A stretch of DNA of 64,000 nt, from the NCBI GenBank assembly GCA_963922205.1, contig CAWUHX010000213.1, positions 62,001 to 126,000 on the forward strand. Reading direction: 5' to 3'. Every line of letters starts with the position of its first letter. The first letter of the stretch is position 1. The translations under genes were made by a program, and so were the position numbers. The notes beneath the pieces are model-generated. The model ran no database searches, was not told the origin of the DNA, and worked only from the letters and a program-made list of their open reading frames with translations. This DNA is from Romanomermis culicivorax. Lineage: Eukaryota > Nematoda > Enoplea > Mermithida > Mermithidae. Below, piece after piece: positions 12,334-48,810 of this stretch.

Positions 12334-12374
12334 CATTCTTAAAGAAATCCCCCAAGAGGAGTGAGTAAGTTTCT

Positions 12375-14351: not shown

Positions 14352-14378
14352 AAGAATTTTCGCTCTGCTGGTGCATTA

Positions 14379-16945: not shown

Positions 16946-18130
16946 TTGGAATCTTGGTGGGTCTCCATGTACGCCAGACCTCCGAATGTGTTGCCGCCGC
17001 CCATCTTCCTTTCACCCGGAAGTTTGGGGCAGGCCTTGGCCGCCCAACCCACACCAAACTTCTGTGGCAACACTTTGGTTGGCTTTGACACCGAGTTAAT
17101 TATGGCTGCAGATATGAAGAATTTCCAGTTTGCCCTGCCCATACCAGCCGATTCCACAGCATCCAGCTATCCCTGCTACATCCAACTCGCGTTCCCCAAG
17201 GGCACGATATTCGTTTTTGAAACCTTCGCCGCTACCCGGAGGACTGGACCGCATTATTCTCCCTAGTCGACGGGGAACACACCATCGTTGTTTCCTTCCT
17301 TCCTACAATCAGACGTTCTCGCCTAGGCCGCCCTCGACGCTTACTATCTGCTTTTTTTGTTTTTGGCTTTTGGCCAGTACGGCTTCATCCCCGAGGTATA
17401 TGATGCTCCCAGATTGTTTCCCCACGATTCATTGGACATTGCTGAAATCAACCACCTCTCCGAGACAATAATCGCGGCTTTCCACAACGTTGCCCTGTCG
17501 GACGTCCTACCCACTATCTTGCAACCTATCCCACTATCTTGCAAATCGCCCTCCCTGCGATTATGCGAGACGAGGTTCTTTCCCCTTACAAAATTTTTCA
17601 TGTTTGATTGCACATTGTCCAACAACGGTTGGTCTTTTTATTTAGGAACAGTACCCAACAGTTTTCGCAGTGTCAAAGTGTTGATGCGTACAAGGCACCC
17701 GAAGCTTCTCACCACCCTGAAAGTGCTCAAAAAGAAAAAGAAGAAAAAAAAAAAAAAAGAAAAGAAAAAAGAAAAAAAAGGAAGAGAAAAAAAAAAAACT
17801 GACCCCACGCTGCCACCAATTCCGCACGAGGTTGAGGACATGTGGATTGAAAGCGTCCCCACCGACCAACTGCTCAGCGATCGAACCTACCAGGGTACCC
17901 ATTACCCTTATCACCCCTCCACCATTTTTAGTTTTTTACAGGCGGATGGCGACTGGTTAGGATGCTTAACAACTTTCATGCTGTTGGCTGCACTTTTGGC
18001 TTCACCTTGTTCTGCCGCGGAATACGCTCACATTAACAATTTCTTGCTTCGCCACGCTCAAAACTTTGATCCGGCAACGTGTACCACCTCCTACAACTGT
18101 ATGTGGTACCGTGCAGACGGCAACCCCTGA
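16946..18130 (+). pseudogene. extra 3' ORF of the gypsy element, part 1 (unknown protein)
   Basis: Coding sequence lies in three overlapping frames (16946-17266, 17130-17471, 17357-18130), as expected of a frameshifted ORF. Readable segments include SYPCYIQLAFPKGTIFVFET, YPEDWTALFSLVDGEHTIVV and FGQYGFIPEVYDAPRLFPHD. An A/G run at 17730-17800 encodes a Lys-rich insert. Near the end, WLGCLTTFMLLAALLASPCS looks like a signal peptide or membrane segment, followed by a Cys-containing stretch. The position between integrase and the 3' LTR is where env lies in some gypsy elements, but no envelope motif was recognised, so function is unknown. Confidence 0.45.
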
Positions 18131-18148
18131 ACGCGCCTCACCGAATGG

Positions 18149-19039
18149 ATGAACCGAATACCGGAGCAAGAGCAATCTTTCCCAAGCGACCCGGGAACTT
18201 ATGCCTACAACCAGTTTGCTCTACACCCACTAATCTTCGACGAGGAATTCCACATGGAAACATCCGTCGAACAAATGGATATTGACGAATCAGACTACAC
18301 GGCGAATCCTCATAGTCGTTTCTACTTCTACTCGACTTTGCTCAACATCATCGACTTTCAAAATCGATTTTTGTTCCCCGCACTGGTGTATGCGTACCCC
18401 TTGCCGACTACGGCCTCGATGCACACGCTCACCACCGAGGAGCTGTTGGACCGCCCAACTTCAGCGATAGACGTAGAACCTGCTAAGGAAGAGCTTTTGG
18501 ATACGCTGATTTTTGATTTAAATATAGCAAAGCTGCTGCTGTCTACTGAAGCGTCGGCTCTTCCTCCCCCCACTGCCACAGCTGATCTTACGGCAACCCC
18601 AACGCAAATAACCAATTTCTTGAAATTGAGGCTTGAGGAAATATCAACCCTCGCCCCGGTGCTGATGGACGAATCTACTCCGATCCAACCCACCGCGATG
18701 GATGCTGAAACAAACACCACCATGGATCAAACCCTAATGGATATACCCGAAGAAAGCACCGCCAATCAGTCCATGTCAATGGACGTCATGCCTGCAGAAC
18801 CGGCAACGGTATTGCCTCCGATGATGCCGGTTGTGGACCCTTGCATTTATTTGGCCACTCCGGCAACCCTGTCCGGTCCTCTGATTATCGCCACTGTTGC
18901 CGCTGCTAGGTATAGTGCTCCTGTTCGTTTTTCGCAACATATTATTTCAGATCAGCAATGGCAAGCATTAGCCGCAGCTCTCACCGCATACCATTTTCCC
19001 TCGCTGCTGCCCCGTATGTTATTCCTGGAACACCATTGA
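18149..19039 (+). CDS. extra 3' ORF of the gypsy element, part 2 (acidic, Pro/Thr-rich)
   Basis: A 296-codon open frame separated from the previous one by a single TGA and probably once continuous with it. It begins MNRIPEQEQSFPSDPG and contains HSRFYFYSTLLNIIDFQNRF, then a long low-complexity acidic Thr/Met/Pro-rich region (repeated MDxxTP and TMDQTLMDIPEE types), and ends near RFSQHIISDQQWQALAAAL. After the stop, continuation peptides are visible in other frames to about 19370 (MKRKQHLQEEANYRKSHK). I recall similar proteins among Romanomermis ORFs, unverified. No catalytic motif was seen; a structural or disordered protein is inferred. Confidence 0.5.
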   Translation: MNRIPEQEQSFPSDPGTYAYNQFALHPLIFDEEFHMETSVEQMDIDESDYTANPHSRFYFYSTLLNIIDFQNRFLFPALVYAYPLPTTASMHTLTTEELLDRPTSAIDVEPAKEELLDTLIFDLNIAKLLLSTEASALPPPTATADLTATPTQITNFLKLRLEEISTLAPVLMDESTPIQPTAMDAETNTTMDQTLMDIPEESTANQSMSMDVMPAEPATVLPPMMPVVDPCIYLATPATLSGPLIIATVAAARYSAPVRFSQHIISDQQWQALAAALTAYHFPSLLPRMLFLEHH

Positions 19040-20357
19040 ATGGATTATCCGGACACGCTCAAGGAAGAGATACAACACATTCTGCTGCCGCAAATGACGC
19101 TAGCTGCATGGGTTCCTCAAATTGCTCAACCCGCTCTGGTCATCACTCAAGCGGCCATACAGCCGCCCACCTTCAAACCCCACAGGGTTTGAGGATGTTC
19201 AAACCCCACAGGCTCCCAACACATCTGCACCAGCTTTAGATGGCCATGGCCAGCCCATTCGAAAACCCGGACGTTATGAACATTCCATGAAACGCAAACA
19301 ACATCTTCAGGAAGAAGCCAATTACCGTAAGTCTCACAAGACCCGTAGGACGGATGAACCCCTGTCGGCTTGATCAACAGCTGGATGGCCTACCCGCAAT
19401 ATTCATCGTTCGAACAACCACCCCAAATCGTTGATATCCAACGAATCTACCTTCAATACCATAGCGAAACGGACTGTCCTGTACCCCTGCTGCGCGGGCA
19501 CGATTTCTCTGCCCTGTGGAACTTGTTGCCACCGCGACTGTTGCCGCCAACAGGGCTACCTTCGGACGGCCCCTCATTGATAGCTACACAGCTGCCCCCT
19601 CCAGGTGTCAACCCTCTCTCACCACTACAGTCCCAAACGTTCACTTCGTCTTCCCGATGCGGCGATGCCGCCAACTACGGCCGCTTTCCCTGCCATTCTC
19701 GTTCCGTTCGATTTCGATGGCCATGACAATCCTGGTGACCCCCATGGTTATCACAATGGCGGCTATTGCCAAGAAAATTGCAACTGCCGCGACAATCAGC
19801 AACAATCTTGATCCGCATCCGACACTCACCATCATTGCTGCCATTGATTCCAAGCTTTTGTACAGTAACATTAGTTTTTTCCTTTTTTTTGTTTTTCCTC
19901 AACCTCGTTAGTGCCGGTCGTTTTGTTTTTCTAATCTCTTTTGTGTGCTTTATTTTGTACTCGTATTCCCAGCGCACGTGCAGCCAATGTTGAGACCACA
20001 CAGTAAGTGGACTCGACTTGTTCTACCGCCAGACGCCCCCACTTGCGCTGTTTTGTCCTTTTGGCCTTCGCCGCCTCATGCCATATCATTACCGCTGCCG
20101 CCATAGTGGCCGGCCTCACCCTCCCATCCGCATGGCATCATATGCTGGTGCCCTCCAGTATATCGGTGCGGACAGAGTGACAATGCGAGCTGCAGGGATG
20201 CAAACTTTACGACCTAACTAATTGCAACCCCTGTTGGGAGGTCTCACCCTATGCGCCGTCCAAAATCGGCACAAACAACTGCAATAACTCCATCAGCCCC
20301 ACTGCGTGATGCCAAAGATCCCTTCAGCCACCCCGGTGACGGCCTGTAGTGGCGGTG
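19040..20357 (+). other. decayed end of the extra ORF and 3' untranslated part
   Basis: Short shifted frames continue the Pro/Arg/His-rich character to about 20000. After that no coherent frame is seen before the polypurine tract. Confidence 0.4.
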
Positions 20358-20415
20358 CCCTTTCCCCTTGCACGTTTTGGTTATTTCTTAATGATCGCTT
20401 AGGGCGATCTACCGC

Positions 20416-20428
20416 AAGGGGGAAGGGG
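20416..20428 (+). promoter_or_regulatory. polypurine tract for plus-strand priming
   Basis: AAGGGGGAAGGGG immediately precedes the 3' LTR. It can pair with CCCTTTCCCCTTGC at 20358-20371, so the tract sits in one arm of an inverted repeat. Confidence 0.88.
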
Positions 20429-20983
20429 TGTTGTTGTGTGTTTCTGCCGATTTTCCCATATTTTGTCAATTCACGCATGAGACCCGCAAGTGTCAAGTGG
20501 AGTGAGGGATGCGGACCATCAACTGTCGTCTTACTGTAGCGCAGGTCAGTACGCCTGCGCTGGCTCTCTCATTGTGCATTATTATTCTTATGTGTTTTTA
20601 TAACGTGTGCCCCATTAGTTAAATCCCGTACTCACTGCCCCCCCACCCCCTGCATGCACGCCTGTGTTTGTTGTTCTTTCCAGTGCGTGGGAGTGAAATT
20701 GTTTTTCTTTCTCGCCCATAGCCTTTGTAAGTATGTGTTTTTCATTGTGTAAGTAAATTTGAAGAAAGGGATTTCATTTCTTGTATTCATTTAATTCAGA
20801 AGACAATTAAGGAAACATCTTTTCCTTAATTGGTGGGATTATTAGTGTCGGGTTTAAGTACTGTTAGCTAAGTAAATGGGGTAAGCATGGGCGCGGGAAA
20901 TACGTACATTAAGGACGAATCCTGGGATCCCAATCTTGCCTGAACTCAGAGCCCAAAGCCCCGACTACTCTTCAAATACAACA
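20429..20983 (+). repeat. 3' LTR of the gypsy element
   Basis: 555 bp, TGTTG...CAACA, directly repeated with 8459-9008 and followed by the AATG target duplication. Confidence 0.93.
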
Positions 20984-24212: not shown

Positions 24213-24318
24213 ATACGTATGTTAATTAAAATCATAATGTGTGAATGAGTGTGACATAAGCCTGACATATAAGTGACATACAGTTTGCTTTTTCACTCAG
24301 CAGGCTATTTAGCGGACA

Positions 24319-24505
24319 TGTTGAGGCAACCTCTTCCCGCTACTCGGGGCTTCAGTAAAAGTTGAGCTCGGTCTGGGACTTGAACCCAGGACCTTGCGGC
24401 TACCGTCTGCATGCTCTAACCAACTGAGCCAACCAAGCAGCAGGAAAGGCGCTCTCTTTTTGCAGCAGTTCGTAGTTGAGGTGGCTGCTTTGGCCACTCT
24501 CAACA
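24319..24505 (-). mobile_element. solo copy of the tRNA-like SINE
   Basis: A 187-bp unit with TGTTGAG...CTCAACA ends flanked by GACA (24315-24318 and 24506-24509), or GACAT if the element starts one base later. On the minus strand it contains a tRNA-like block at 24438-24366 with box A (TGGCTCAGTTGG) and box B (GGTTCAAGTCC) of a pol III promoter. The same unit forms the array at 31753-33313. Confidence 0.85.
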
Positions 24506-24796
24506 GACATACAGCACGACATGTGGTATTATTTGTGTGCTCGATGCATGTAATCATGACAGGTGCAAAAAAATTCATCATCCAAAAGTATAGAAGGGCC
24601 AACGATAGCAACAGACTTTCTTTTCGACATAGAAAAATAAAACTGGAGTGGGAAATGTCGTAGTGTATGCCATAGCTTATGTCACACATTATGTTATCTT
24701 ATATGTCACACATGTGAACATCTTAATGTTGAGACATTTTTTGAAAAAGCACATATGTCGCAATATGTATGTCAGGGGAAGTGTCGCCATGTGAAC

Positions 24797-27602: not shown

Positions 27603-28278
27603 GAACCAAAAATCATTGCAACAAAATACAAGCAATGGTGGTCAGGGCAAATCAAATAGTTACCACAGTAAACTCTTTCACTCATATCAGCATGGTGATA
27701 TCTCGTCTATCAGATTATTTGCGGAAAAACATTTTTTTCCATTACAACAATTGAGTATATTATTCAACTAAAAAGTGAATTTACATTAAAATTGGGAAGC
27801 ATTGAAATGCTTCCAAACCATGAGGAAAAAAATTGGAAAAACACAGACCTGAAAAATGCTGAAAAAACCATCAGATCACAACCCCATATTCATATATTTG
27901 AGACAGGAATTACAACTAGTAGTGCAGCTGTTCCATCTATACATTAATGACTAACTTGTTTCAATTTTCTTCAAAGCTACATCTATGCTCCCAGCCTAGG
28001 CCCAGCCTTATTTGCACCCATGAACATATGCAAATTGAACTTTGTCAGGCAATATTATTCACGATTGTAAAGCCAATTATGTAGGAAGAGACGGCCCAAC
28101 AAGTATTCCAAAAAGCACTCCTATATCAGGTTAAAGGTGCTGCATTGCAGGCTTTCAGAAAAAGCAACATGTATTACAGGCCCTTTTTCTCCTATGCAAC
28201 TGCACTTTTAGGACAAATTATGCTTCGGTTGATGATTATGTTTGAAAATTATATGGAATTTTTTGGAGTGAAAATAAG
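27603..28278. other. AT-rich DNA, no feature seen
   Basis: Nothing supported. Only short frames, no splice-bounded exon. Confidence 0.4.
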
Positions 28279-28698
28279 TTTGAAAAATAGGGTGCAGCCA
28301 GGAGTCGAACCTGGGTTACCAGCATTCGGGGCTGATGTCCTCACCACTAGACCACCACACCACGAGGTGAACCCAGATTAAGGTGTTCCCCTAGGCTATG
28401 ATTTTTTAGGACACAACTCCAATGCTTGGTGGTCGTGAACCTACAACCTTTTTGGCAAGTAGCAGCGTACCTGCTGCTTTTTGAACTGCCCACCAATGAA
28501 GTTGGTAACTTTTTAGAAATGAAAATTATATGGAATTTTTTGGAGTGAAAATAAATCATAGCTGTGCTAAAAAATCATAGCCTAGGGGAACACCTTTAAT
28601 CTGGGTTCACCTCGTGGTGTGGTGGTCTAGTGGTGAGGACATCAGCCCGGAATGCTGGTAACCCAGGTTCGACTCCTGGCTGCACCCTATTTTTCAAA
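28279..28698. repeat. inverted pair of tRNA-derived SINE copies
   Basis: Arms 28279-28409 and 28567-28698 are reverse complements with very few differences. Each contains a 71-nt tRNA-like block (28361-28291 minus; 28616-28686 plus): acceptor GGTGTGG/CTGCACC, box A GGTCTAGTGG, a perfect T arm CCAGG-TTCGACT-CCTGG, and an anticodon stem TCAGC/GCTGG. The loops read CCCGAAT and CCGGAAT, without U33, so these are tRNA-derived rather than working tRNA genes. The arms extend beyond the tRNA part, as a SINE would. A short direct repeat (ATATGGAATTTTTTGGAGTG) flanks the left arm and recurs in the spacer. Confidence 0.75.
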
Positions 28699-30399: not shown

Positions 30400-30495
30400 A
30401 CCATTTACCCCATAAGGTGAAAATTACAAGAGGTAGCTACAGTAACTGGTTCTGACATGAACTTTAGGCAACAGTATGAACGAGGGTAGGCTTTG

Positions 30496-31019
30496 GCTTA
30501 GGCAAAGGCTTAGGCTTAGGGTTAGGGTTAGGCTCAGGCTCAGGCTTAGGCTTAGGCTTAAGCTTAGGCTTAGGCTTAGGCTTAGGCTTAGGCTTAGGCT
30601 TAGGCCTAGGCATAGGCTTAGGCTTAGGCTTAGGCTTACGCTTAGGCTTAGGCTTAGGCTTAGGCTTAGGCTTAGGCTTAGGCTTAGGCTTAGGCTTAGG
30701 CTTAGGCTTAGGCTTAGGCTTAGGCTTAGGCTTAGGCTTAGGCTTAGGCTTAGGCTTAGGCTTAGGCTTAGGCTTAGGCTTAGGCTTAGGCTTAGGCTTA
30801 GGCTTAGGCATAGGCTTAGGCTTAGGCTTAGGCTTAGGCGTAGGCTTAGGCTTAGGCTTAGGCTTAGGCTTAGGCTTAGGCTTAGGCTTAGGCTTAGGCT
30901 TAGGCTTAGGCTTAGGCTTAGGCTTAGGCTTAGGCTTAGGCTTAGGCTTAGGCTTAGGCTTAGGCGTAGGGTTAGGCTTAGGCTTAGACTTAGACTCAGG
31001 CTCAGGCTCAGGCATAGGC
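30496..31019 (+). repeat. interstitial nematode-type telomeric repeat (TTAGGC)n
   Basis: About 85 tandem TTAGGC units. The core (30620-30960) is almost pure; the edges contain variants such as TTAGGG, CTCAGG, TTAGAC and GTAGGG. Long open frames on both strands (Pro-Lys, Leu-Ser, Leu-Arg repeats) are artefacts of the 6-bp unit. TTAGGC is the nematode telomere repeat. Unrelated sequence on both sides makes this interstitial. Read 5'-3', the G-rich strand points to the right. Confidence 0.97.
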
Positions 31020-31752
31020 TATCATTTAGCATACACGTTATATCATTCATGCCTCGTCGCACATTTTGCCCTTTAACTGTGGGTAACTTTTGCATTACAC
31101 TCATTGTATGACCGGTGGCTACTAGACACACGAATGCCGTGTTTAGCCTGCTATAGAGCAGTGTAACCCTATTGAGTGACCTACAGTAATGATCTGCATA
31201 CAAGCCAAAAGCCTCTCTGGTTATGTTGCTGAAGTCTTTTCACCTTAGCAGAGGTCTACGCATAACTGTTGGCGTACTCTACATCATGCCTGATCAATTT
31301 CTGAATTTTCAGTGCATGATTGCTTAAAGTACTTTATTCAGGTAGATATATAAAATCCTGAGCCAGATTAACACTATCCATGTTATCCAGTATAAAGTAG
31401 AGTCAAGATCTACTTCCCTCAACATATGGAATGGCTTCCTGGGTGGCACAGCTCTAAAAATTTTAACCATCGACCAATGTTGAACAGAGCTTTACATCAT
31501 ACGTTGACATGGTTCACGTGTTTTTGTATTTTAATAAGCTGAACACAATTCTTTACATCATATGTTGACATGCTTCATTACAGTTTCACATCCTAAGTCT
31601 TTACAATGGTCAATAGAACCCAAATCACTACAGCTTGTCATCTTCACACTATTTTATAGACAACTGTTTTCACATCATTTGCCTCACACTTTTTTGTTGG
31701 TCAATGTGATTTTCATCATTCATAACATTCTATGTCAACATGCTTTACACCA
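31020..31752. other. AT-rich DNA, short dispersed repeats
   Basis: No gene supported. A segment with TTTACATCATACGTTGACATG near 31493 partly recurs near 31552. Confidence 0.4.
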
Positions 31753-33313
31753 TGTTGAGAGTGGCCAAAGCAGCCACCTCAACTACGAATTGCTGCAAAA
31801 AGAGAGCGCCTTTTCCGCTGCTCGGTTGGCTCAGTTGGTTAGAGCGTGTGGACAGTAGCCGCAAGGTTCCTGGTTCAAGTCCCGGACCGAGCCTAACTAT
31901 TACTGAGGCCCCGAGTAGCGGGAAGAGGTTGCCTCAACACTGGTGGCCCTTGACGGTCCGTCAAACTCGACGGCGGAGGGATGTTGAGAGTGGCCAAAGC
32001 AGCCACCTCAACTACGAATTGTTGCAAAAAGAGAGCGCCTTTTCTGCTGCTCGGTTGGCTCAGTTGGTTAGAGCGTGCGGACGGTAGCCGCAAGGTCCTG
32101 GGTTCAAGTCCCAGACCGAGCCTAACTTTTACTGAAGCCCCGAGTAGCGGGAAGAGGTTGCCTCAACACTGGTGGCCCTTGACGGTCAGTCAAACTCGAC
32201 GGCGGAGGGATGTTGAGAGTGGCCAAAGCAGCCACCTCAACTACGAATTTTTGCAAAAAGAGTGCGCCTTTTCCGCTGCTCGGTTGGCTCAGTTGGTTAG
32301 AGCGTGCAGACGGTAGCCGCAAGGTTCCGGGTTCAAGTCCCGGACCGAGCCTAACTTTTACTGAGGCCCCGAGTAGCGGGAAGAGGTTGCCTCAACACTG
32401 GTGGCCCTTGACGGTCCGTCAAACTCGACGGCGGAGGGATGTTGAGAGTGGCCAAAGCAGCCACCTCAACTACGAATTGTTGCAAAAAGAGAGCGCCTTT
32501 TCTGCTGCTCGGTTGGCTCAGTTGGTTAGAGCGTGCGGACGGTAGCCGCAAGGTCCTGGGTTCAAGTCCCAGACCGAGCCTAACTTTTACTGAAGCCCCG
32601 AGTAGCGGGAAGAGGTTGCCTCAACACTGGTGGCCCTTGACGGTCAGTCAAACTCGACGGCGGAGGGATGTTGAGAGTGGCCAAAGCAGCCACCTCAACT
32701 ACGAATTTTTGCAAAAAGAGAGCGCCTTTTCCGCTGCTCGGTTGGCTCAGTTGGTTAGAGCGTGTGGACAGTAGCCGCAAGGTTCCTGGTTCAAGTCCCG
32801 GACCGAGCCTAACTATTACTGAGGCCCCGAGTAGCGGGAAGAGGTTGCCTCAACACTGGTGGCCCTTGACGGTCCGTCAAACTCGACGGCGGAGGGATGT
32901 TGAGAGTGGCCAAAGCAGCCACCTCAACTACGAATTGTTGCAAAAAGAGAGCGCCTTTTCTGCTGCTCGGTTGGCTCAGTTGGTTAGAGCGTGCGGACGG
33001 TAGCCGCAAGGTCCTGGGTTCAAGTCCCAGACCGAGCCTAACTTTTACTGAAGCCCCGAGTAGCGGGAAGAGGTTGCCTCAACACTGGTGGCCCTTGACG
33101 GTCAGTCAAACTCGACGGCGGAGGGATGTTGAGAGTGGCCAAAGCAGCCACCTCAACTACGAATTTTTGCAAAAAGAGTGCGCCTTTTCCGCTGCTCGGT
33201 TGGCTCAGTTGGTTAGAGCGTGCAGACGGTAGCCGCAAGGTTCCGGGTTCAAGTCCCAGACCGAGCCTAACTTTTACTGAAGCCCCGAGTAGCGGGAAGA
33301 GGTTGCCTCAACA
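31753..33313 (+). repeat. seven-unit tandem array of a tRNA-like SINE, 229-bp period
   Basis: Units start at 31753, 31982, 32211, 32440, 32669, 32898 and 33127. Each is a 187-bp element (TGTTGAG...CTCAACA) followed, except the last, by a 42-bp linker. Diagnostic differences give the order A-B-C-B-A-B-C, so a 916-bp (four-unit) higher-order repeat is visible, and the linker alternates CCGTC/CAGTC. The array as a whole is flanked by ACCA (31749-31752 and 33314-33317). Minus- and plus-strand frames of 66 and 111 codons recurring in each unit are repeat artefacts. Confidence 0.95.
31820..31892 (+). tRNA. tRNA-like block (first of seven; probably not a functional tRNA)
   Basis: 73 nt that fold as a cloverleaf: acceptor GCTCGGT/ACCGAGC, D arm with GGCTCAGTTGG, anticodon stem TGTGG/CCGCA with loop ACAGTAG (formal anticodon AGT, Thr), and box B GGTTCAAGTCC. 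The other six are at 32049, 32278, 32507, 32736, 32965 and 33194 (each 73 nt). B units have a perfect T stem and loop ACGGTAG (formal GGT). C units have a mispaired anticodon stem. Position 33 is C rather than U in all, and all lie inside SINE units, so a tRNA-derived retroposon is more likely than real tRNA genes. Confidence 0.45.
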
Positions 33314-33424
33314 ACCATTCATTAGACCCTTAACTAGACCTCCGAATAAAGCACCATTCGGCAGTGTTTCAAAACCACTGCATCGTTCCATCGAGATGTG
33401 CTTTACACATTTTTATACCATTTG

Positions 33425-33713
33425 ATATTTTTCTTTCATTTTGCGGATTTTTTTGGCTAGATTTTCGTTCAAATTTAAAAATTGACGACGTAATTTTTTA
33501 TTTTCCGTTTTTAAATCTTGATTTTCTTGCGATAATTGAACACCAAAAGCGATGGGAAAACCGATAAATAAGGATCGATCGATTATCGATTGATTTTCTC
33601 CTAAATATTGTTGCAATTTTTCTTCTAAATTCCAAATTAGTGTATTGGAATCGATTTGAAGAATCGGTATTTCGACGACGGAATTTTCCAAATTGACGCT
33701 ATCGTCCCGAGTC
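33425..33713 (-). pseudogene. coiled-coil protein, exon 3, copy 1 (3' truncated)
   Basis: Starts after acceptor TTTTTAG. It reads TRDDSVNLENSVVEIPIL, then LIWNLEEKLQQYLGENQ, FIGFPIAFGVQLSQENQDLK and a coiled-coil-like ENKKLRRQFLNLNENLAKK. It joins exon 2 in phase (GC + G). Copy 2 shows that the exon should continue to a donor after NRSK. Here the duplication breakpoint replaces that end and the frame runs into KYQMV and a stop. No family recognised. Confidence 0.55.
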
Positions 33714-33729
33714 CTAAAAATTCAAAATT

Positions 33730-35545
33730 TTGAAAAAATTATAAAATCTGAAATTTTGAGAGAATTATAAAATCTGAAATTTTTAAAAAATTGAAATATT
33801 CAAAATCTTAAAAAATCTTAAATTTAAAATTGAAATCGTCAAAATGAGTGGAAACACCGAGTGATTTTTGGGTTTTGATGATTTTTTTAAAATCAAAATC
33901 CTAAATATTTAGACTTTACACAATTTCTAATTTAAAAAATTCAAATTTTCGGAAATTTCATACGAGAAATATTTGAAAAACGAGAAAAATTGTGAATTTT
34001 CCAAGATCAAAAATATTAAAATTAACATTTTACATAATTTTCGAAAATTAAAAAATTCAAATTATTGTGATTTTCAAATCAAAATTAGATGAAAAATTCA
34101 ATTTTTTTTCTTAATTTGAAAAAATTTTCCCACAGAAAAAAAACTCAAAATTTAGCGTTTACACAATTTTTTAATTTAAAAAATGAAATTTTTTGAAAAT
34201 TTCGTATGAAAATGAGTTGAAAAATTTAAGAAATTGTACATTCTTTCAATTAAAAAGCTCAAAATTTGGAATTTACACAAGTCATGAATTTCAAAAATGC
34301 AAATTTATGAAAACTTCGTACCAAAATTGGTTCAAGACTAAAAAAAAATTTGAAATTTTTTCCATCAAAAAACTCAAAATTTAGAGTTGATACAAGTTTA
34401 AAATTTTAAAAATGCATATTTTTCATAATTTCGTTTCCAAATTAGTTGAAAAACGGTGAAAATTGTGCATTTTTTGAGATCCGATATCCCAAAATTCAAA
34501 GCTTGCACAATTTTCAAATTTCAAAAATGCATAGTTTTGAAAATTCCACATCAAAATCGTTCGAAAAAATAGGAAAATTGTCAATTTTTTGAAATCAAAA
34601 AGCTCAAAATTTGGAATTTACACAATTTTCAAAATCTATAAATTTTCAAAATTTCATGTCCAAATTACTTCAAATATTCAGAAAATTGGGGAATATTTTA
34701 AATCAAAATTTTAAAAATTTGGAGTCCACACAATTTTTGAATTTAAAAAAAGAATTTTTTCGAAAATTTCGTTTAAAAGCGGTTGAAAAATTGAAAAAAT
34801 TGTAGATTTTGTCAATTAAAAAGCTCAAATATTGGAATTTACACAACTCACGAATTTAAAAAATGTAAATTTTCGAAAATTTAATATCAGAATTAAATGA
34901 AAAATGACAAAAATTTTGATTTTTTTGGAGTCAAAAAGCTCGGAATTTCGACTTTACCCAATTTTTGAATAGAAAAAATCAAAGTTTTTTTCAAAATTTC
35001 ATATGAAAATTAGTCGAAAAATTCAGAAAATTGTGAATTTTCTGAAATCAAAAAGGTCAATATTTGGTGTTTACACCATTTTTAAATTTAAAAAATGCTA
35101 TTTTTTGAAAAAATGCTAATTTTTGAAAGATTGTGAATTTTTTGATATTAAAAATCTGAAAATATGAAGTTTACACAATTTTCAAATTCAAAAAATGAAT
35201 TTTTTTCATTTGAAGTTTTTTCATTTAAAAATGTCAAAATTTGCAGTTTACACAATGTTTGAATTCGAAAAATTCAAATTTATGAAAATTTCACATCAAA
35301 ATGAGTTGAATAACGCCAGAAAATGGTAATTTTTTGATTTTGATTTTTTTTTTAAATTAAAAAGCTCAAAATCTGGAGTTAAAAAACGATTTTTGAATCT
35401 TAAAAATGAAAATTTTTTGAATTTTTTCAGTTGAAAAACGTTAAAAAGTTGGTGATTCAAGAATTAAAATTTAAAATTTAAAAAAAAATGTAAAAATTAA
35501 AAATTTCAAAAAAAGTTAAAAATTTTTAAAATTAAAATTATGAAA
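33730..35545. repeat. degenerate ~115-bp tandem repeats filling an intron, copy 1
   Basis: About 14 diverged units, each built like AAAAAGCTCAAAATTTGGAA, TTTACACAATTTT, AAAAATG and GAAAATTTCGTA. The TTTACACAATTTT-type block recurs at about 34030, 34158, 34272, 34386, 34502, 34616, 34725, 34838, 34950, 35060 and 35168. It lies in the intron between exons 2 and 3. Confidence 0.75.
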
Positions 35546-35559
35546 AAAAGTTTTCTCAC

Positions 35560-35919
35560 GCTTGCACATTTTCCAAAAATTTCAACGTCAACGTCGATTC
35601 TTGGCGTAATTTTTCGAGCTTGAACGTCAAGTTTTTCAACACCGACGCTGCTTCACTAGCTTCGTCGACGGAAAAAACCTCTCCGCCGGCGGCGACTTTT
35701 TCCACAGCGATTTTTCCGACGTCTAGATTTTTTCCGTCGGCGTTTACCGCGACGTTTTTTTTAAACGTTTCTTGTCGTCGTCGTATTTTTCGCTTGTAAT
35801 AATTTGGACATTAGATTTTTTAACGCCGACGCCGCTTTATTAGCTTCGTCGGTCGACAACGGTTTGGCGGCCGTCGGATTTCCGCCGTCGGTTTTTTGAC
35901 GTTTGGCGGCCGGTTCGAT
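35560..35919 (-). pseudogene. coiled-coil protein, exon 2, copy 1 (frameshifted)
   Basis: 360 bp between acceptor CTAACCGCAG and donor GTGAGA, GC-richer than its surroundings. It reads IEPAAKRQKTDGGNPTAAK (NLS-like KRQK), then STDEANKAASALKNLMSKL. After a TAA in an A run the reading resumes as NVAVNADGKNLDVGKIAVEK, then SVDEASEAASVLKNLTFKL and LKFLENVQA. The two xxDEAxxAAxxLKNL segments are internal repeats. Copy 1 has one more A than copy 2, so the downstream part is out of frame. Confidence 0.6.
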
Positions 35920-35924
35920 CTGCG

Positions 35925-37426
35925 GTTAGAAAGTGACGTCAGCAAGATGAGAAAAGTAGAAAAAAGAAAAAAAAACATAAAAAAGATAAAAGATGAAAAA
36001 AGAAAAAAAAGAAAGAAAACTATGCAAGAAAATGAAAAAAGAACGTAAGACAATGAAGACTATAATGAAAACAAAAGAGAGGGAAAAGAAACATGTAAAA
36101 AGAGAAAAAAAGAAAAGAAAAAAGACAAAAATTAAAAAAAAAATGCAAAAAAATATGAAAAACAGAAAAAAACGCAAAAAAGGTAAAAGAGAAGGACAAA
36201 GAAAAACCTAAAAAAAGAATAAAAGAAGGGAAAAAAGAAAAAAATGAACAGAAAAAAAGGACAAAAGAAAAAGAAAAGCATAATAAAGAAGAGAAAAGAG
36301 AAAAAAGAAAATTATTAAAAACATAAAAAAAAGAAAAAAGCACAAAATAAAGAAAAATACGAAAAAAGAAAAACAAAGAAAAAGTATTATGAAATAAAAA
36401 ACGGAAGACAAAGAAAAAAGGAGAAAACATAATAAGAGGACAAAGAAATGTAAATAATGAAAAAAAGAATAAAAAAGGAAAAAGGGAAAGAAAAATATCA
36501 AAAAGAGAAAAAGAAAACGCTAAAGAAAAGGACAAGAAAAAAATTGTGAGGAAAAAGAAAAATGATAATAATAAAACAGAGAGAAAGAGGAAACGAAAAA
36601 ATGAAGAAAAAACGAAGAAAAAAGGAAAAATATAACAAAAACGTATAATAAAAAAAATAAAAATTAAAGGAAGAAAAAGAAAAATATAGCAAAAGCAGAG
36701 ACAAAAGGGCAAAAGAAAAAAAAACAAAATATAAAAAAAACAAAAAAATATAAGAAACAAAAAACAAAAATGTAAGACGACAAAAACGAAAAGGAGAAAG
36801 AAAAAGGGAGAAAAAGAAAAAAATATAAAAGAAAAGAAAAAAGAAAGAAACATAAAAAACAAAAAAGGAGATAAGAAAGAAAAAAAAATTAAAAATGTGA
36901 AAAGAGACAGCAGAATATAGAAAAGGAAAGAATAAAGAAAAAACGACGAGGAAAAATAAAAAAAACAAGAAAAAAACATAAAAACCACAGAGAAACATCA
37001 CAAAAGGATGGAAAGCAAAATGAAAAAGAGAAAGTAGAATATAAACAGAGAAAAAAAGTAAAAAAGGAAAAATAAAAACCCAAAGGTAAGCAAAGAACAA
37101 ATAAAAAAAATACGATAACAGACAAGGAAAAAACAGCAGAAGAAAAAGAAAAATACAGAAAAACCAAAAATTAAAGAAAAACTAATATCCAAAAGAAGAA
37201 CAAGAACAACATAAGAAAAGAAATAGAAAGTAAAATATATATAAAAAAGAAAAAAGAAAGAAAATATAAAAGAAGAAAAGAAAAGGAATAGAAATGCGTA
37301 GAAAAGAGGAAAGGAAAGAAAAAAGAAAAAAGGAAAAAGAAGAACAAAAAAAGACAAAAAAAAACGAAGAAAAATAAGAAAAAAGGAAAATAATGAAAAT
37401 AAAAAAAGCAAAAATAAATTTTTTAT
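35925..37426. repeat. ~1.5-kb nearly pure purine tract in intron 1, copy 1
   Basis: The plus strand is almost only A and G (AAAAG/AAAGAAAA-type, few C/T), so the sense strand of the gene is a 1.5-kb polypyrimidine intron. Its Phe/Leu-rich minus-strand frames of up to 322 codons and Lys-rich plus frames are composition artefacts. Confidence 0.9.
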
Positions 37427-37471
37427 TTTTTCCTCTTCACTATCAATTATTCGACTTTGTTCAGGATTCAT
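37427..37471 (-). pseudogene. coiled-coil protein, exon 1, copy 1 (donor lost)
   Basis: 45 bp, MNPEQSRIIDSEEEK, starting ATG at 37471. Copy 2 has GTAAAA directly after it; here the donor reads ATAAAA, so correct splicing to exon 2 is not expected. Confidence 0.5.
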
Positions 37472-39690
37472 AATTGGATGAAAAATTAAAAATATATACC
37501 TAAAAACACAAAAAAAATGCGAGATGAAAAATTATGAATTTTGATATAAAATATGCAAATGAACAACACACTATTTCCGTACAAAAAAATACACCACAAT
37601 TTTATTAAATTTAACATAATCAAGCAAAAATTCAAATAAATTTGACGTCAGCAAGGAAATCTTCCTTTACACCACTTGAAATTTAAAATGTAAAACGAAA
37701 ATTGAATGCGAAGGAGAAAAAAAGGCAGTTTTTTCCGGAAAAAATGACAAAAAATCAGTTCGAAAGTTTAATTTTTAGGCAGAATTTGAATTTTGGAATC
37801 GAATTTTGCTGCAAAATTTCTAAATTTGGCTGCAAAAAAAAACAAAAATTTCGACCAAAAAATTGCAAATTCTATTGAAAAAAAAAATTTCCTAATTTTG
37901 TTGCATAAAAAACAAAATTCCGATCAAAAAACTCACAAATTTTATTGCAAAATTGGATAAATTTTCAAATTTAGCCGTGAAAACAAAAAAATTTCAGTCA
38001 GAAAATTTCAAATTCTGCAACGAAATTCAAAAATTTACCAATTTTTCCTGGGAAATTTACAAACTCAGCTTCAAAAAAAGAAAATTCCGAAGAAAAAATT
38101 CAAAAATTCTGCCAAGAAATTCGGAAATTTTAAAATTTTGCTCGAAAATTTCCAAATTTGGTTGCAAAAAAACAAACAAAAATTTCGACGAAAAAATCAA
38201 AAATTCTACTGCAAAATTGGATAATTTTGAAATTTAGCTGCAAAAAAAAAATAGAAAAAATCGCAAATTCTGCAATGAAATTGAGAAATTTTCAAAGTTT
38301 GCCCTGAAATTTTCAAATTCTGCGGGAAAAATTCTCAAAATCATCTACAAAAACCTAAATTTTCTTCGTTCACAAATCACAATCAAACCATCCAAATACG
38401 AAAATTTTCAAATTTACGTGGAAAGAATGACAAATTCTGATTGGAAATTCGGAAAATTTTTTAATTTGGTCCAAAATTTTCAAATTTACCTCGCAAGAAA
38501 AAACCAAATTTCGACCTAAAAATGGCGAATTCTGCTACGAAATCCGGAAATTTTCGAATTTCGTTGCATAAAATACAAAATTTGGATAAAAAAAAAAAAA
38601 TTCTGTTACGGAAATTTTGGAACTTTGATCATAAATTTTCAAATTTATCGGAAACTTTGAATTCTAGGCGCAAAAAAAAAGCAAGATTCTACAAAAAATG
38701 AGAAATTCTGCTACAAAATTCGGAAACTTTTTTTGGAATTTTGCTTCAAATTCCTCATAGAAATTTTCAAATTTAGCCGAAAAAAACCAAATTCAGACCT
38801 AAAAAATGGCAAATTGTGCTGCGAAATTCAAAAATTTTCAAATTTTGCTGCGAAGAAGCAAAATTTCGATGGAAAAAATGGCAGATTCTGCTACAAATAC
38901 GAAAATTTTCAAATTTTGTTGAGAAATTTAGGAATTTCGTTCGTAGATTCGCAAAAATTCTGCGACAAAGTTGGGAAATTTTGAAATTTTGTTGGAAAAT
39001 TTTGGAAATTTCTCAGGGAAATTTTCAAGTTTTGTTCGAAAATTTGCAAATTTTGCAGCGAAAATATGGCAAAGTGTGCGACGAGGTTGAGAAATTTTCA
39101 AATTTGGCTCGAAAAAAAAACCAGAATTTAGACCTAAAAATGGAAAATTCTGCTAGAAAATTGTGAAATTAAGCACAATAAGGGCGGCTAAATGAGAGGA
39201 AGAGCTGGTGAACCCCAAATTTTTAATTTTTTCTTGTTGAAAATCACTTGATTTTTTATTTTCCATCAATTTTTGTTTAAAAAATGATTTTTTTTCTGGA
39301 ATTTTTGATCGAAAAAATTGGAGTTTTCAATTTTTTTTTATTTAATTTTGTGAATTTCCAAAATTTAGAAATTTTTCTCAATTTTAGAAATTTCAGAACG
39401 TTTTCGATAACAGTTTTACAAATTGAACGAATTTTCCAAACTTTACAAATTTTTTCAATTTTTAAAAACCTTGCTATATTTCACAAATTTTGGAAAATTT
39501 TCCTTAATTTTAAAATTTTGCAATTTTCTCTCGAGCTTGCAAATTTTACAAATTTTTTTTTTTTATTTCTAGAAATTTCACCACATTTAAAAATTTTTCT
39601 GAATTTTACAAATTCCACAAAATTACTAAATTTCACAAAGTCGGCAAAGTTCTATAAATTTTTCAACAGTATGTCACATTATTTGTAGCA
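37472..39690. repeat. degenerate ~70-bp AT-rich repeats upstream of the gene, copy 1
   Basis: Blocks of the type GAAATTTTCAAATTTTGCTG, then AAAAACCAAATTTCGACC and AAAAATGGCAAATTCTGCTA recur from ~37790 to 39175, followed by TTTTGAATTTTACAAATT-like DNA to 39690. No gene; the Phe/Asn/Lys-rich frames are artefacts. Confidence 0.65.
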
Positions 39691-42330
39691 TGCAGGGGGA
39701 GACCTGTCCTGTAAAATGGGACCACAGGCCTGACACTGAGGTATTGGTTCCTCCTTGTGTCTACATTTAACCTAACCCGCTTAGTACTTACTATAGAAGG
39801 CATACATGCACATTGGGGAGTAGGGGGGGGGGGGTAAACCCACATGCCCGAGACCCTGGCCACCTCCCCTGACCAGAAAAATCGTCAAACACCACACCTG
39901 AACCTTTTCCAAGACAGCTTTTTTGATGGTTCTTGTGTATATTTTGTATGAAAAACAGGCCTCAGAACTTTTTTCTGTTTTTTTGCTCACCCACACCCCT
40001 AACCCTCAGGGAAAAAAGTCCCCCTGGAAAATTTTTGCCGTGCATGTCTGCAAGGTACGTTTGCATAAATTGGTGGTACAGGTACAGTAAACCGTGTAAG
40101 TGAGCGTGGTTCAAGGACAACAAGGTCCTCCAGGGACAAAGTGTCGCAGGCTGAAGGGCCGTTGTGAATGAGACCCTTGCATGGGATTTTGGCATCCCTG
40201 AACTAAAGAAAGAATTTCTCCCAGTTCAGATGAACACACTTGAATCATCCTAAGAAGATTGTCCCCAGGACGAGTTTGGCCGAGCGTTTCTCTCGGATCT
40301 GGACTTCAATCTGTTCAGAGACATCAGCTACTGATACCGTGACATAGGCAGTGCCTAGCAGTGGGATCCTAGACCTGTTGGCTGCTATGGGGCGAGCCCT
40401 AGTATGTGTCGTACTAAGTCGGGCAGTTTGGCCACCAACTTGCGGTCCAGGAGTGAGAAAACAGCTCCTCTGTCGACCAGTGCCTTACCTTTCACCAGCT
40501 TATTCAGGAGAAGTTCGATATGGGGTGTCTGCATATCGTTGGGGTAGAAAGCTGTAACCACGTGACCTGGATCAGATGTGTGAGCACTAACACCATGGTC
40601 TATCGGACAACATTGCCGTGGAACTGGCAACGCTATGCAACAGAGCAGTGGTACTAAGGCATAACTGATGGGAGTGTTTAGGTGAACCTGTAGGGTTAGA
40701 TCATCCCGGACTCTGAGGACATGGTCAGAGTGATCTATTTGGCTCTGTGTTGCTCCCAGTTATGCAATCTCTGTGTCTGACAATGGTGGCACTGTCATAA
40801 GAAATGATGCCGGAGCATCTGAATCACTTTCCTCATGGAAGCTGCTTTTATCCAGCATGACTGGTGAATTTTACTGGTGGGGGTCAATAGCAATTCGACC
40901 CCTGCACAGTCAGTGATAGATGGCGTGCTCATCAGGAAGACTTCTAGTATCTTCTAGTGTATCCACATGATGAGACAACCAAGGATGCATGGGAGGGTAG
41001 TATTCAAATGGAAGAAGCCCTTGACTGGAATCATGACCCGGACCTATGGGAGGAGTTGGATAGGGAACATGTATTCTCCCAGTAAGGGTAGCTCTGGTCA
41101 ATCTCTGGCGTTTTCAGGAGAAGGGGCAGTTCTGTCACATTCAACATACATACTTTACATTGATAACCATATATGATGGTGTTTAACTGCTTTAGGAAAT
41201 CAAGACTGAGTATTAAATCAACCAGTGCCTAGAAGGGAGAGGTTGTCAAACATACACCAACCTGCATAGGTAAGAACTTGTAGCAGACGCTACCCACTCG
41301 GTACAAATGGTAAACATACCCAGCATCGACTTTTTGACATGGTTAAGTGCATCGCCTGTGGAATCGGCCATCAGGTCATTTTGTTGAAGGATTGCCCAGG
41401 CCCCCAAGGTAGGGTCAAAGGGAAGCAACTGTCAGGTCAAATCAAAGCAGCATTGAGCATGAGTGCAAAGCTCAAGCCACATGAATCGAAAATTACCCAT
41501 TTCCAATTCCTTAATTTTCTAGCTCAGTTTGGTGTTGATAGGGTCTGGAGGAGAGTCTTTCGCCAATCCAAACATATTGTAGGTCAGATTATAACTCCCC
41601 TGGATGCATAGGAGAAGACTTAGCTCTAGGCACAATCATAATGCACACGAGTTTCATGGGATCTTAAGGGCAACCTGAAGGTGATCCATGATGATGTGGT
41701 TCCCTGACACAGATGCAGTGTAGTTTCCCTTGCGGAGATAGTGACACTGTGCTGTGGAATTGTGGGCAGGCCAGACAATGACCGCGTCAAGGGTAGTGCA
41801 CTGCCCTAGCCCTAGTGTCATCCCACTTAGCCATTTGTCCCTCTTGGATGAAAAAGTTAGTCACTGTCTTGCAGACGTCACTGCAGCACCAGTTGTACAC
41901 TACTTCCAATGTTTGGTTTGTGCTATAAAAGCCTCGGCGGATACAAACAAGCTTTCTTGACCCATATCTCTTAGTTTGATGTGCTAGCATAGCGGCTGCA
42001 AGTGCTAGGTGCTGTGTAGTACAACATCTGCAGTGATGTCCTTTGATTCGAATAACCCAGTGTTGGTGCAGACTTTGCATTTATGCAATGTGCTTATCCA
42101 ATCAGAACTAGGAACATATACCATAATATTCATGCATCGTGGTGTCTATGAAGATTGTGGCGGTTTACACTGAAAATGGGTTCTAAACTTTTCAAAAATT
42201 AGATGCTGAAATTCCATATGATATATTATATGATGTTCCAAAAAACGTCAATTGAGTACCCCTTTTTTGTATCTTCTATCAGGACAGTCTACTAGCTGTT
42301 ATGTTCGACAACATCTACTGGGTTCAATTT
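39691..42330 (-). mobile_element. decayed LTR-retrotransposon fragments, copy 1
   Basis: Minus-strand frames, broken by stops, read in order KGHHCRCCTTQHLALAAAM (~42040), then near 41420 FDPTLGAWAILQQNDL and DALNHVKKSMLGMF, then RIHVPYPTPPIGPGHD (~41075), then a protease-like segment at 40630-40385. A diverged further copy lies at 43380-43980. No RT or integrase was seen, so it is a truncated gag-protease part. Confidence 0.55.
40385..40630 (-). pseudogene. retropepsin-like fragment, copy 1 (DTG changed to DRG)
   Basis: Contains IELLLNKLVKGKALVDRGAV then FSLLDRKLVAKLP, the layout of an aspartic protease active site (hydrophobic-Val-Asp-Thr-Gly-Ala) with Arg for Thr. Thr/Ser is required at this place in the family, so it is inactive. 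The copy at 51725-51994 has the same change. Confidence 0.6.
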
Positions 42331-44742: not shown

Positions 44743-45050
44743 CTTTTGATCGATTTTTCTCCAAAATTTCTTTCATTCTGCGGATTTTTTTGGATAAATT
44801 TTCGTTCAAATTTAAAAATTGACGACGTAATTTTTTATTTTCCGTTTTTAAATCTAGATTTTCTTGCGATAATTGAACGCCAAAAGCGATGGGAAAACCG
44901 ATAAATAGAAATCGATCGATTATCGATTGATTTTCTCCTAAATAGTGTTGCAATTTTTCTTCTAAATTCCAAATTAGTGTATTGGAATCGATTTGAAAAA
45001 TTGGTATTTCGACGACGGAATTTTCCAAATTGACGCTATCGTCCCGAGTC
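44743..45050 (-). CDS. coiled-coil protein, exon 3, copy 2
   Basis: 308 bp between acceptor TTTTTAG and donor GTGACT (after NRSK). Same product as 33713-33425 with a complete 3' end: ENSVVEIPIFQIDSNTLIW, then LGENQSIIDRFLFIGFPIAF, then the heptad-like ENKKLRRQFLNLNENLSKK and IRRMKEILEKNRSK. A coiled coil is predicted from the Leu/Asn spacing. The acceptor phase matches exon 2. Further 3' exons were not found. No family recognised. Confidence 0.6.
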
Positions 45051-45064
45051 CTAAAAATTCAAAA

Positions 45065-46875
45065 TTTTGAAAAAATTTGTAAAATCTGAAATTTTGAGAG
45101 AATTATAAAATCTGAAATTTTTAAAAAATTGAAATATTCAAAATCTTAAAAAATCTTAAATTTAAAATTGAAATCGTCAAAATGAGTGGAAACACCGAGT
45201 GATTTTTGGGTTTTGATGATTTTTTCAAAATCAAAATCCCAAATATTTAGACTTTACACAATTTCTAATTTAAAAAATTCAAATTTTCGTAAATTTCATA
45301 CGAGAAATATTTGAAAAACGAAAAAAATTGTGAATTTTCCAAGATCAAAAATATTAAAATTAACATTTTACACAATTTTCGGAAATTAAAAAATTCAAAT
45401 TTTTGTGATTTCCAAATCAAAATTAGATGAAAAATTCAAATTTTTTTTAATGTGAAAAAATTTTCTCACTGAAAAAAACTCAAAATTTAGAGTTTACACA
45501 ATTTTTTAATTTAAAAAATGAAATTTTTTGAAAATTTCGTATGAAAATGAGTTGAAAAATTTAAGAAATTGTACATTTTTTCAATTAAAAAGCTCAAAAT
45601 TTGGAATTTACACAAGTCATGAATTTCAAAAATGCAAATTTATGAAAACTTCGTACCAAAATTAGTTCAAGACTAAAAAAATTTGAAATTTTTTCCATCA
45701 AAAAACTCAAAATTTAGAGTTGATACAAATTTAAAATTTCAAAAATGCATATTTTTCATAATTTCGTTTCCAAATTAGTTGAAAAACGGTGAAAATTGTA
45801 CATTTTTTGAGATCCGATATCTCAAAATTTAAAGCTTGCACAATTTTCAAATTTCAAAAATGCATAGTTTTGAAAATTCCACATCAAAATCGTTCGAAAA
45901 AATAGGAAAATTGTCAATTTTTTAAAATCAAAAAGCTCAAAATTTGGAATTTACACAATTTTCAAAATCTATAAATTTTCAAAATTTCATGTCCAAATTA
46001 CTTCAAATATTCAGAAAATTGGGGAATATTTTAAATCAAAATTTTAAAAATTTGGAGTTCACACAATTTTTGAATTTAAAAAATGAAATTTTTCGAAAAT
46101 TTCGTATAAAAGTTGGTTGAAAAATTGAAAAAATTGCAGATTTTCTCAATTAAAAAGCTCAAATATTGGAATTTACACGACTCACGAATTTAAAAGTTTT
46201 CGTAAATTTAATATCAGAATTAAATGAAAAATGACAAAAATTGTAATTTTTTTACAATCAAAAAGCTCGGAATTTCGACTTTACCCAATTTTTGAATAGA
46301 AAAAATCAAAGTTTTTTTCAAGATTTCATATGAAAATTAGTCGAAAAATTCAGAAAATTGTGAATTTTCTGAAATCAAAAAGGTCAATATTTGGTGTTTA
46401 CACCATTTTTAAATTTAAAAAATGCTAATTTTTGAAAAAATGCTAATTTTTGAAAGATTGTGAATTTTGTGATATTAAAAATCTGAAAATATGAAGTTTA
46501 CACAATTTTAAAATTCAAAAAATGAATTTTTTTTCATTTGAAATTTTTTCATTTAAAAATGTCAAAATTTGCAGTTTACCCAATGTTTGAATTTGAAAAA
46601 TTCAAATTTATGAAAATTTCACATCTAAATGAGTTGAATAACGCCAAAAAATGGTAATTTTTTGATTTTGATTTTTTTTTAAATTAAAAAGCTCAAAATC
46701 TGGAGTTAAAAAACGATTTTTGAATCTTAAAAATGAAAATTTTTTGAATGTTTTTAGTTGAAAAAACGTTAAAAAGTTGGTGATTCAAGAATTAAAATTT
46801 AAAATTTTTAAAAAAAATGTAAAAATTAAAAATTTCAAAAAAAGTTAAAAATTTTTAAAATTAAAATTATGAAAA
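45065..46875. repeat. degenerate ~115-bp tandem repeats filling an intron, copy 2
   Basis: Counterpart of 33730-35545, same unit structure. Confidence 0.75.
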
Positions 46876-46888
46876 AAAGTTTTCTCAC

Positions 46889-47247
46889 GCTTGCACATTT
46901 TCCAAAAATTTCAACGTCAACGTCGATTCTTGGCGTAATTTTTCGAGCTTGAACGTCAAGTTTTTCAACACCGACGCTGCTTTACTAGCTTCGTCGACGA
47001 AGAAAACCTCTCCGCCGGCGGCGACTTTTTCCGCAGCGATTTTTCCGACGTCTAGATTTTTTCCGTCGGCGTTTACTGCGACGTTTTTTTAAACGTTTCT
47101 TGTCGTCGTCGTATTTTTCGCTTGTAATAATTTGGACATTAGATTTTTTAACGCCAACGCCGCTTTTTTAGCTTGGTCGGTCGACAACGGTTTGGCGGCC
47201 GTCGGATTTCCGCCGTCGGTTTTTTGACGTTTGGCGGCCGGTTCGAT
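46889..47247 (-). CDS. coiled-coil protein, exon 2, copy 2 (in-frame TAA)
   Basis: 359 bp between acceptor GACCGCAG and donor GTGAGA. The length fits phase 0 to phase 2, joining exon 1 and exon 3 in frame, but one TAA (after TTTTRNV) remains in the frame. The same TAA is in copy 1, so it predates the duplication, or the frame is handled in a way I do not see. Two internal repeats, (S)xDEAxxAAxxLKNL, and an NLS-like KRQK are visible. Function unknown. Confidence 0.55.
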
Positions 47248-47249
47248 CT

Positions 47250-48765: not shown

Positions 48766-48810
48766 TTTTTCCTCTTCACTATCAATTATTCGACTTTGTT
48801 CAGGATTCAT
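48766..48810 (-). CDS. coiled-coil protein, exon 1, copy 2
   Basis: ATG at 48810, MNPEQSRIIDSEEEK, then donor GTAAAA. It joins exon 2 (47247) in phase 0. Short first exons before a long intron are common. Whether the upstream repeats hold a promoter is unknown. Confidence 0.55.

Follow-up and report, generated by a model that had tools for sequence, protein, structure and literature searches.

The seven-unit tandem array described here is likely the product of a tRNA-bearing LTR retrotransposon, a Helenus-type TRIM. In the explanation that we consider likely as a whole, some arrays of this family integrated as multimers, and the seven-unit array was inserted once and then expanded in place. 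Its host, Romanomermis culicivorax, is a mermithid nematode parasitising mosquito larvae. The array lies in a stretch of 64,000 nucleotides, referred to as the window (assembly GCA_963922205.1, contig CAWUHX010000213.1, positions 62,001 to 126,000 of the forward strand).

Positions 31753-33313 of the window consist of seven 187-bp units and six 42-bp linkers, the final unit having no linker. The start-to-start distance is exactly 229 bp (187-bp core and 42-bp linker). Over 229 bp there is no difference between units 2, 4, and 6; units 1 and 5 differ at two positions and units 3 and 7 at two (over 187 bp), and all other pairs differ at 6-11. These pairwise differences confirm the higher-order arrangement A-B-C-B-A-B-C, with a 916-bp super-repeat, given in a preliminary description of the sequence. 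The order is more exactly A-B-C-B-A-B-C', as unit 7 is C-like to about position 119 and carries a B-like base at 132 and at 155. The same description placed the whole array within one target duplication and noted tRNA-like content, and both observations hold. ACCA directly abuts the array on the left (31749-31752) and right (33314-33317), and every unit contains a tRNA-Thr-like sequence (ARAGORN; Rfam RF00005, 42-57 bits). The features are listed below, with the PBS and PPT of the linker assigned from position and from comparisons with tRNA-Ile and LTR elements.

31749..31752, no strand, left target site duplication ACCA
31753..31939, plus strand, LTR unit 1, type A, TG...CA, tRNA-like sequence at 31820-31893
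31940..31981, plus strand, internal domain 1, C followed by putative PBS TGGTGGCCC (31941-31949), ending in putative PPT GGCGGAGGGA (31972-31981)
31982..32168, plus strand, LTR unit 2, type B, tRNA-like sequence at 32049-32122
32169..32210, plus strand, internal domain 2
32211..32397, plus strand, LTR unit 3, type C, tRNA-like sequence at 32278-32351
32398..32439, plus strand, internal domain 3
32440..32626, plus strand, LTR unit 4, type B, tRNA-like sequence at 32507-32580
32627..32668, plus strand, internal domain 4
32669..32855, plus strand, LTR unit 5, type A, tRNA-like sequence at 32736-32809
32856..32897, plus strand, internal domain 5
32898..33084, plus strand, LTR unit 6, type B, tRNA-like sequence at 32965-33038
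33085..33126, plus strand, internal domain 6
33127..33313, plus strand, LTR unit 7, type C except for B-like bases at positions 132 and 155, tRNA-like sequence at 33194-33267
33314..33317, no strand, right target site duplication ACCA
24319..24505, minus strand, solo LTR of the same family as the array, with GACA at 24315-24318 and 24506-24509

The surroundings of the array contain further repeats. An interstitial telomere-like stretch of 89 TAGGCT copies (94% match) occupies 30487-31020, ~730 bp upstream; TAGGCT is a rotation of TTAGGC, the nematode telomere repeat. A 7.6-kb direct duplication (33430-40998 and 44767-52337, 95% identity, 11.3 kb apart) starts 117 bp to the right of the array. 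At 28243-28698, two inverted tRNA-Ser-like sequences lie inside ~136-bp arms (28279-28413 and 28563-28698, 98% identity), accompanied by a 35-bp direct repeat at 28243-28277 and 28520-28554. This is perhaps another mobile element.

An assembly artefact is unlikely to account for the array, because the published R. culicivorax v2 assembly (359.1 Mb, 595 scaffolds) was built from PacBio HiFi and Nanopore reads (PMC10879605) and arrays of 3-9 units occur at other places. The genome searched here comprises 359,112,060 bases in 595 contigs. Three DNA searches with family queries gave 48, 83, and 69 matches, with the best 40 of 1292, 1236, and 1253 candidates scored, respectively. The resulting locus sample is biased, as candidates were ranked by likeness to the query. 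Removal of repeated places left 72 loci for analysis. Places already counted (L001-L008, L051-L053, L056, L061-L063, L066) were left out, as were L026 and L027, which are segmental copies of L025. These three loci, ~32-36 kb apart on contig C205, present one four-unit array with the same target site duplication (TSD) three times. Eleven further three-unit places are among the matches listed, of which only L099 entered the sample.

Among the 72 loci, 17 have one unit and 15 have two, tallies that take in inverted or truncated fragments. The remaining 40 have three to nine units: three in 10 loci, four in 15, five in seven, six in five, seven in one (the window), and nine in two. Intact multi-unit copies follow the form core-(linker-core)n with a TGTTGAG start and a CTCAACA end, or a near variant, and some loci are truncated. 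A two-unit copy is 416 bp long (187+42+187). Linkers are 42 bp in 149/155 cases, start with N-TGGTGGCCC in 133/155, and end with GAGGGA in 132/155. The filters for complete or intact arrays differ slightly between comparisons, with 28 arrays used for first-last rank, 28 for TSDs, and 30 for identical unit pairs. Satellite DNA, expected as long arrays at few sites, was ruled out, the longest sampled array having nine units and the family being spread over many contigs.

An exact 4-bp TSD, expected by chance in 1 in 256 copies of any kind, flanks all 12 intact two-unit copies. Among intact arrays of at least three units, 21/28 have an exact 4-bp TSD, five more have one mismatch, and two have no match. 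For intact single-unit copies the count is 8/15. The four-unit array L031 has an empty-site counterpart in L007, which is identical at 116/120 positions without a gap and contains a single AGCC. As the array-less flanks with one AGCC match L007, the whole L031 array is one insertion. The surroundings of the solo copy at 24319-24505 likewise have an uninterrupted relative, at L040:1820-2009 (152/199, gapped). No empty site for the window's array was found among the retrieved sequences compared.

The anatomy of these copies is that of an LTR element, as judged from the TG...CA ends, the constant 4-bp TSD, the TGGTGGCCC/GAGGGA linker, and the occurrence of solo, two-unit, and many-unit forms. Each array unit is accordingly read as a 187-bp LTR carrying a tRNA-Thr-like sequence and each linker as a 42-bp internal domain with PBS and PPT. 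On the same reading the solo copy is a solo LTR, two units form an ordinary element, and the array is LTR-(internal-LTR)n. The copy at 24319 had been described as lacking the linker, and it is indeed a single unit flanked directly by GACA; nor is the linker a normal part of most solo copies.

The preliminary classification of the unit as a SINE did not survive this comparison. Internal A and B boxes and a tRNA-like fold are what a tRNA-derived SINE mobilised by a LINE would contain, but 67 bp of the unit lie before the tRNA-like part, in place of the 5' tRNA head of such elements. A LINE-like or simple-repeat 3' tail is absent, the TSD is fixed at 4 bp and not variable, and neither the TG...CA ends nor the PBS/PPT linker belong to a SINE, making this identity extremely improbable. 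A non-autonomous DNA transposon (MITE) with inverted ends TGTTGAG/CTCAACA, whose multimers are moved by a transposase, is compatible with the short inverted ends and constant TSD. It leaves unexplained the tRNA-complementary PBS at the linker start and the purine tract at its end (133/155 and 132/155 linkers), the solo form of exactly one unit, and a copy of mature tRNA behind one LTR, and is considered very improbable. Self-cleaving ribozymes or retrozymes were also considered and rejected, as the 19 Rfam matches that 31700-33400 gave at E values up to 10 include no ribozyme. A Helitron-like rolling circle was ruled out by the constant TSD.

Helenus, or TRIMp3, is a type of TRIM with a tRNA sequence in the LTR, a 4-bp TSD in animals, and a Gypsy-type PBS (Kojima 2024, PMC10886601). 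The R. culicivorax family matches this published description by its anatomy. ARAGORN and Rfam RF00005 identify the tRNA-like sequence in the LTR of all seven window units and the solo copy, and like that of Helenus it has conserved A and B boxes. The 416-bp two-unit copies are non-coding, have two LTRs, a PBS, and a PPT, and fall below the ~1.3 kb of the description. The TSD counts and the L031 empty site agree with the animal TSD length, and the PBS is complementary to a host tRNA, tRNA-Ile, and shared with Gypsy elements (L088-L091). Further likenesses described in PMC10886601 are tRNA-Thr-like sequences in some Helenus families, tRNA-Ile among bivalve primers, and a mention of tandem arrays for zebrafish LTR-11_DR. 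The family differs in its nematode host, Nematoda being absent from the six animal phyla listed in that paper, and in its 42-bp internal domain, the shortest noted from there being 85 bp in Selaginella. It also differs in that arrays of 3-9 units are analysed here for their unit-level history. Several origins of Helenus are held likely (PMC10886601). A search of the literature from 2023 on for Helenus TRIM retrotransposons gave no report beyond this one. In the sampled loci, a three-unit array at L043:1002-1646 (TSD CAAC) is inserted in an LTR end of another tRNA-bearing element, which is ~67% similar and apparently represents a second, older Helenus-like family.

Tandem LTR arrays are known from other elements. 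Cassandra TRIMs share a Pol III-type promoter within the LTR and LTR-internal-LTR arrays, for which tandem transcripts and template switching were proposed (PMC7215508). They differ in carrying 5S rRNA in place of tRNA and in their plant hosts, and the comparison of first with last LTR is made here. Plant tandem LTR retrotransposons likewise form arrays with shared internal LTRs inside one TSD, but are large coding elements (PMC11899658). In the maize TRIM Wukong, arrays contain three, four, six, or seven LTRs and are ascribed to unequal crossing over, and a term search of the main text gave no tRNA (PMC4528315). Hence the Helenus type and tandem arrays in Cassandra, Wukong, plant LTR elements, and zebrafish LTR-11_DR are already known. 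Within the reach of the literature searches, three things are new: the occurrence in a nematode, the internal domain of 42 bp together with arrays reaching nine units, and the LTR-by-LTR evidence for how arrays enter the genome.

The primer of the family can be traced through L074 (= L084). Here a C comes after a Helenus LTR, and the next 32 nt are antisense to mature tRNA-Ile at its 3' end, with the non-encoded CCA included. The genes matching this stretch are tRNA-Ile(AAU) genes (L078, L082, L083, L087); the tRNA-Ile pattern occurs at 32 places in the genome within two mismatches, ten of which were retrieved. The canonical linker PBS pairs with tRNA-Ile(AAU) over 9 nt only, followed by a mismatch. 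The L074 copy was also considered as a strong-stop product that had integrated with CTAC as its TSD; this TSD was dropped, as a similar ACTAC follows the tRNA stretch of L086. In L079, L081, L085, and L086 (and L080), at about position 1500, and in L088-L091, an LTR is followed by a ~43-nt PBS region that is antisense to mature tRNA-Ile over its 3' half. This region includes CCA and extends to the first anticodon base. At the position of A34 in the tRNA-Ile gene (CTAATAACGCC), 4/5 copies have G and L080 has A; G is expected if inosine-34 was reverse transcribed. These features suggest either that copying went beyond position 58 or that the primer was a half-tRNA.

The larger elements provide candidate partners for the family. 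L088-L091 are four larger LTR elements with a PBS complementary to ~43 nt of tRNA-Ile, with a few changes in L090 and L091. In three of them the LTRs start with TGTTGGGC and end with CACAACA (the 3' LTR end of L090 was not located); the L088 LTR ends with CTAACA and its start was not located. Three have TGTTG...CAACA ends, two of these with a GAGGGA PPT. L089 has a TCAA TSD, LTRs of 99.5% identity, the PPT GCGAGGGA before TGTTG, and an integrase domain, and L090 has a similar PPT. L091 contains RT, RNase H, and integrase pieces in Ty3/Gypsy order, and no Pfam domains were found in the scanned frames of L088 and L090. Their ends, PBS, PPT, and TSD length in common with the family make these elements candidate partners, in which nested insertions are possible. 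The Helenus-type family probably depends for its mobility on Ty3/Gypsy-type elements of its host genome. The window itself holds a broken Ty3/Gypsy element at 11764-15259 with protease, RT/RNase H, and integrase pieces. Among named proteins, its polymerase frame matches those of R. culicivorax best (68-78% identity, covering about one third of the query), and the top match overall is a metagenome protein (38% over 88%). A search of 7000-20500 showed no LTR pair for it under the settings applied, leaving no PBS by which to assess it as a partner.

The A and B boxes in the tRNA-like part of the LTR are the least variable of eight regions compared, with a mean minor frequency of 0.026 vs. 0.049 overall, and TTTT follows the tRNA-like part in 190/205 units. 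We infer from this conservation of boxes and terminator that the sequence is a putative polymerase III promoter. The anticodon loop is ACGGTAG in 141/205 units and ACAGTAG in 16/205 (C at 33), and ATGGTAG in 34/205 (T at 33); the commonest loop is thus without U33, which is present in ATGGTAG and belongs to the canonical anticodon loop expected of a functional tRNA-Thr gene.

How the arrays arise can be examined through their terminal LTRs. Both terminal LTRs are copied anew from one template during reverse transcription (PMC10886601; established LTR-element biology), so an array integrated as a multimer should start with identical first and last LTRs whatever lies in the middle. The first and last units are identical in the three-unit L042, L044, and L045 and in the four-unit L023, with middle units differing by 1, 7, 5, and 2-4, respectively. 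All variable sites fall on the middle unit in L044 (7/7) and L045 (5/5). Bases private to the locus, i.e. absent from the other 71 sampled loci, are common to the first and last unit only in L044 (site 81), L045 (site 106), and L046 (site 138). When intact arrays have exactly one identical unit pair, it is the first-last pair in 4/6, against ~1.4 expected at random. In addition, two linked family-wide haplotypes (sites 74/76) are mixed in 10/40 loci of at least three units. A single two-LTR insertion has identical LTRs at the outset, so growth from it is insufficient for this mixing without help from other loci. The ends of the mixed arrays, three of ten being truncated, match in 6/10 vs. ~4.3 expected at random. 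The nearest relative of a unit is at another locus for 94/187 units, in its own array for 80/187, and tied for 13/187, with three lone units counted as 'other' by default. These patterns suggest that a few young arrays fit multimeric cDNA integration; most arrays do not show the pattern.

A general rule of equal first and last units was rejected. For the first-last pair, the mean rank across 28 complete arrays is 0.49, with no overall trend; in seven arrays every terminal-middle pair is strictly less similar, two arrays are tied, and in 19 the first-last pair is not closer. Among eight three-unit arrays with an exact TSD, four fit equal ends, L043 is tied, and L047, L068, and L099 contradict them, the young L099 having unit differences of 1, 3, and 2. 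Of 17 sites at which a locus-private base occurs in exactly two units, three are first-last (L044, L045, L046) and 14, in longer arrays, are not. The LTRs of 14 two-unit copies differ at 1-10 positions, partly at family-wide polymorphic sites (L076). These differences count against the multimer model, as simple reverse transcription does not predict them.

One alternative is that all insertions were ordinary two-LTR Helenus elements and that arrays grew only afterwards, as their LTRs underwent unequal crossing over or gene conversion with one another, a mechanism suggested for Wukong (PMC4528315). The first-last mean rank, the unequal ends of L047, L068, and L099, and the 14/17 private sites outside the first-last pair all agree with it. 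So do periodic identical or near-identical units in the window (2=4=6) and the older arrays L010 (1=4, 2=5, 3=6), L012 (2=6, 1 close to 5), and L017 (2=4), which in these older arrays are read as the mark of later unequal exchange. Growth in place alone offers no route to the haplotype mixes or the private bases confined to first and last units, nor does it explain variable sites restricted to the middle unit of L044 and L045, although ectopic conversion from other loci could produce all three. As the sole process it is possible but doubtful. Alternatively, homologous recombination of extrachromosomal linear or circular cDNAs may have formed multimers that then integrated; transcription from one-LTR circles has been discussed for plants (PMC11899658). 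This would account for arrays with ends of different subfamilies (L030, L068) and for the two-unit L076, but equal terminal LTRs with private shared bases, as in L044, L045, and L046, are not predicted, and we regard it as unlikely.

We conclude that the arrays of the family are overall a mixture of multimer insertion and later local reshuffling and shortening, as read from their unit sequences. For multimer insertion, transcription would start at the tRNA-like promoter of an LTR and at times continue past the TTTT terminator in one or several LTRs; alternatively, reverse transcription would repeat the first strand transfer on a second RNA. The multimeric cDNA, with regenerated identical terminal LTRs, would then integrate once. 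More tentatively, with the balance tipping slightly against it, the array itself may be the replicating unit. Pol III read-through or repeated strand transfer would then yield ready-made arrays with regenerated terminal LTRs, and a TRIM would seed satellite-like arrays across the genome in single integrations.

The window's array may combine both processes. The preliminary description had offered insertion of a multimer and amplification of one insertion as alternatives; both were apt, and they are not mutually exclusive, as the few young arrays favour the former and the locus-private bases and identical B units of the window the latter. The first and last LTRs of the window's array differ at 10/187 positions, the top of the two-unit LTR range (1-10), and therefore the insertion is not recent if they started equal. 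Bases private to the locus occur in units 1 and 5 (site 147), 3 and 7 (site 53), and 1, 3, and 5 (site 155). Together with the three identical B units, these private bases in alternating units point to later amplification in place. The array would have been inserted once, as a short array or two-LTR element, and then diverged, expanded, and been partly homogenised by unequal exchange or gene conversion, giving A-B-C-B-A-B-C'. The simplest history is one insertion, divergence of the outer LTRs, and recent amplification in place to seven units, the last of them partly B-like. The array may have entered as two or three units, and amplification may instead have taken place in an unsampled parent locus before the insertion.

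For tandem LTR-element arrays in plants, the choice between multimer insertion and recombination or later growth was left undecided (PMC11899658). The R. culicivorax family lends itself to testing array insertion against later growth, being short, abundant, and sufficiently polymorphic; the signals are identical end LTRs flanking different middle ones, and private bases common to the ends only. With this family, Nematoda joins the phyla from which tRNA-bearing TRIMs are reported. These LTRs can also inflate tRNA gene counts and SINE annotations in the genome of R. culicivorax, and perhaps in those of other mermithids.
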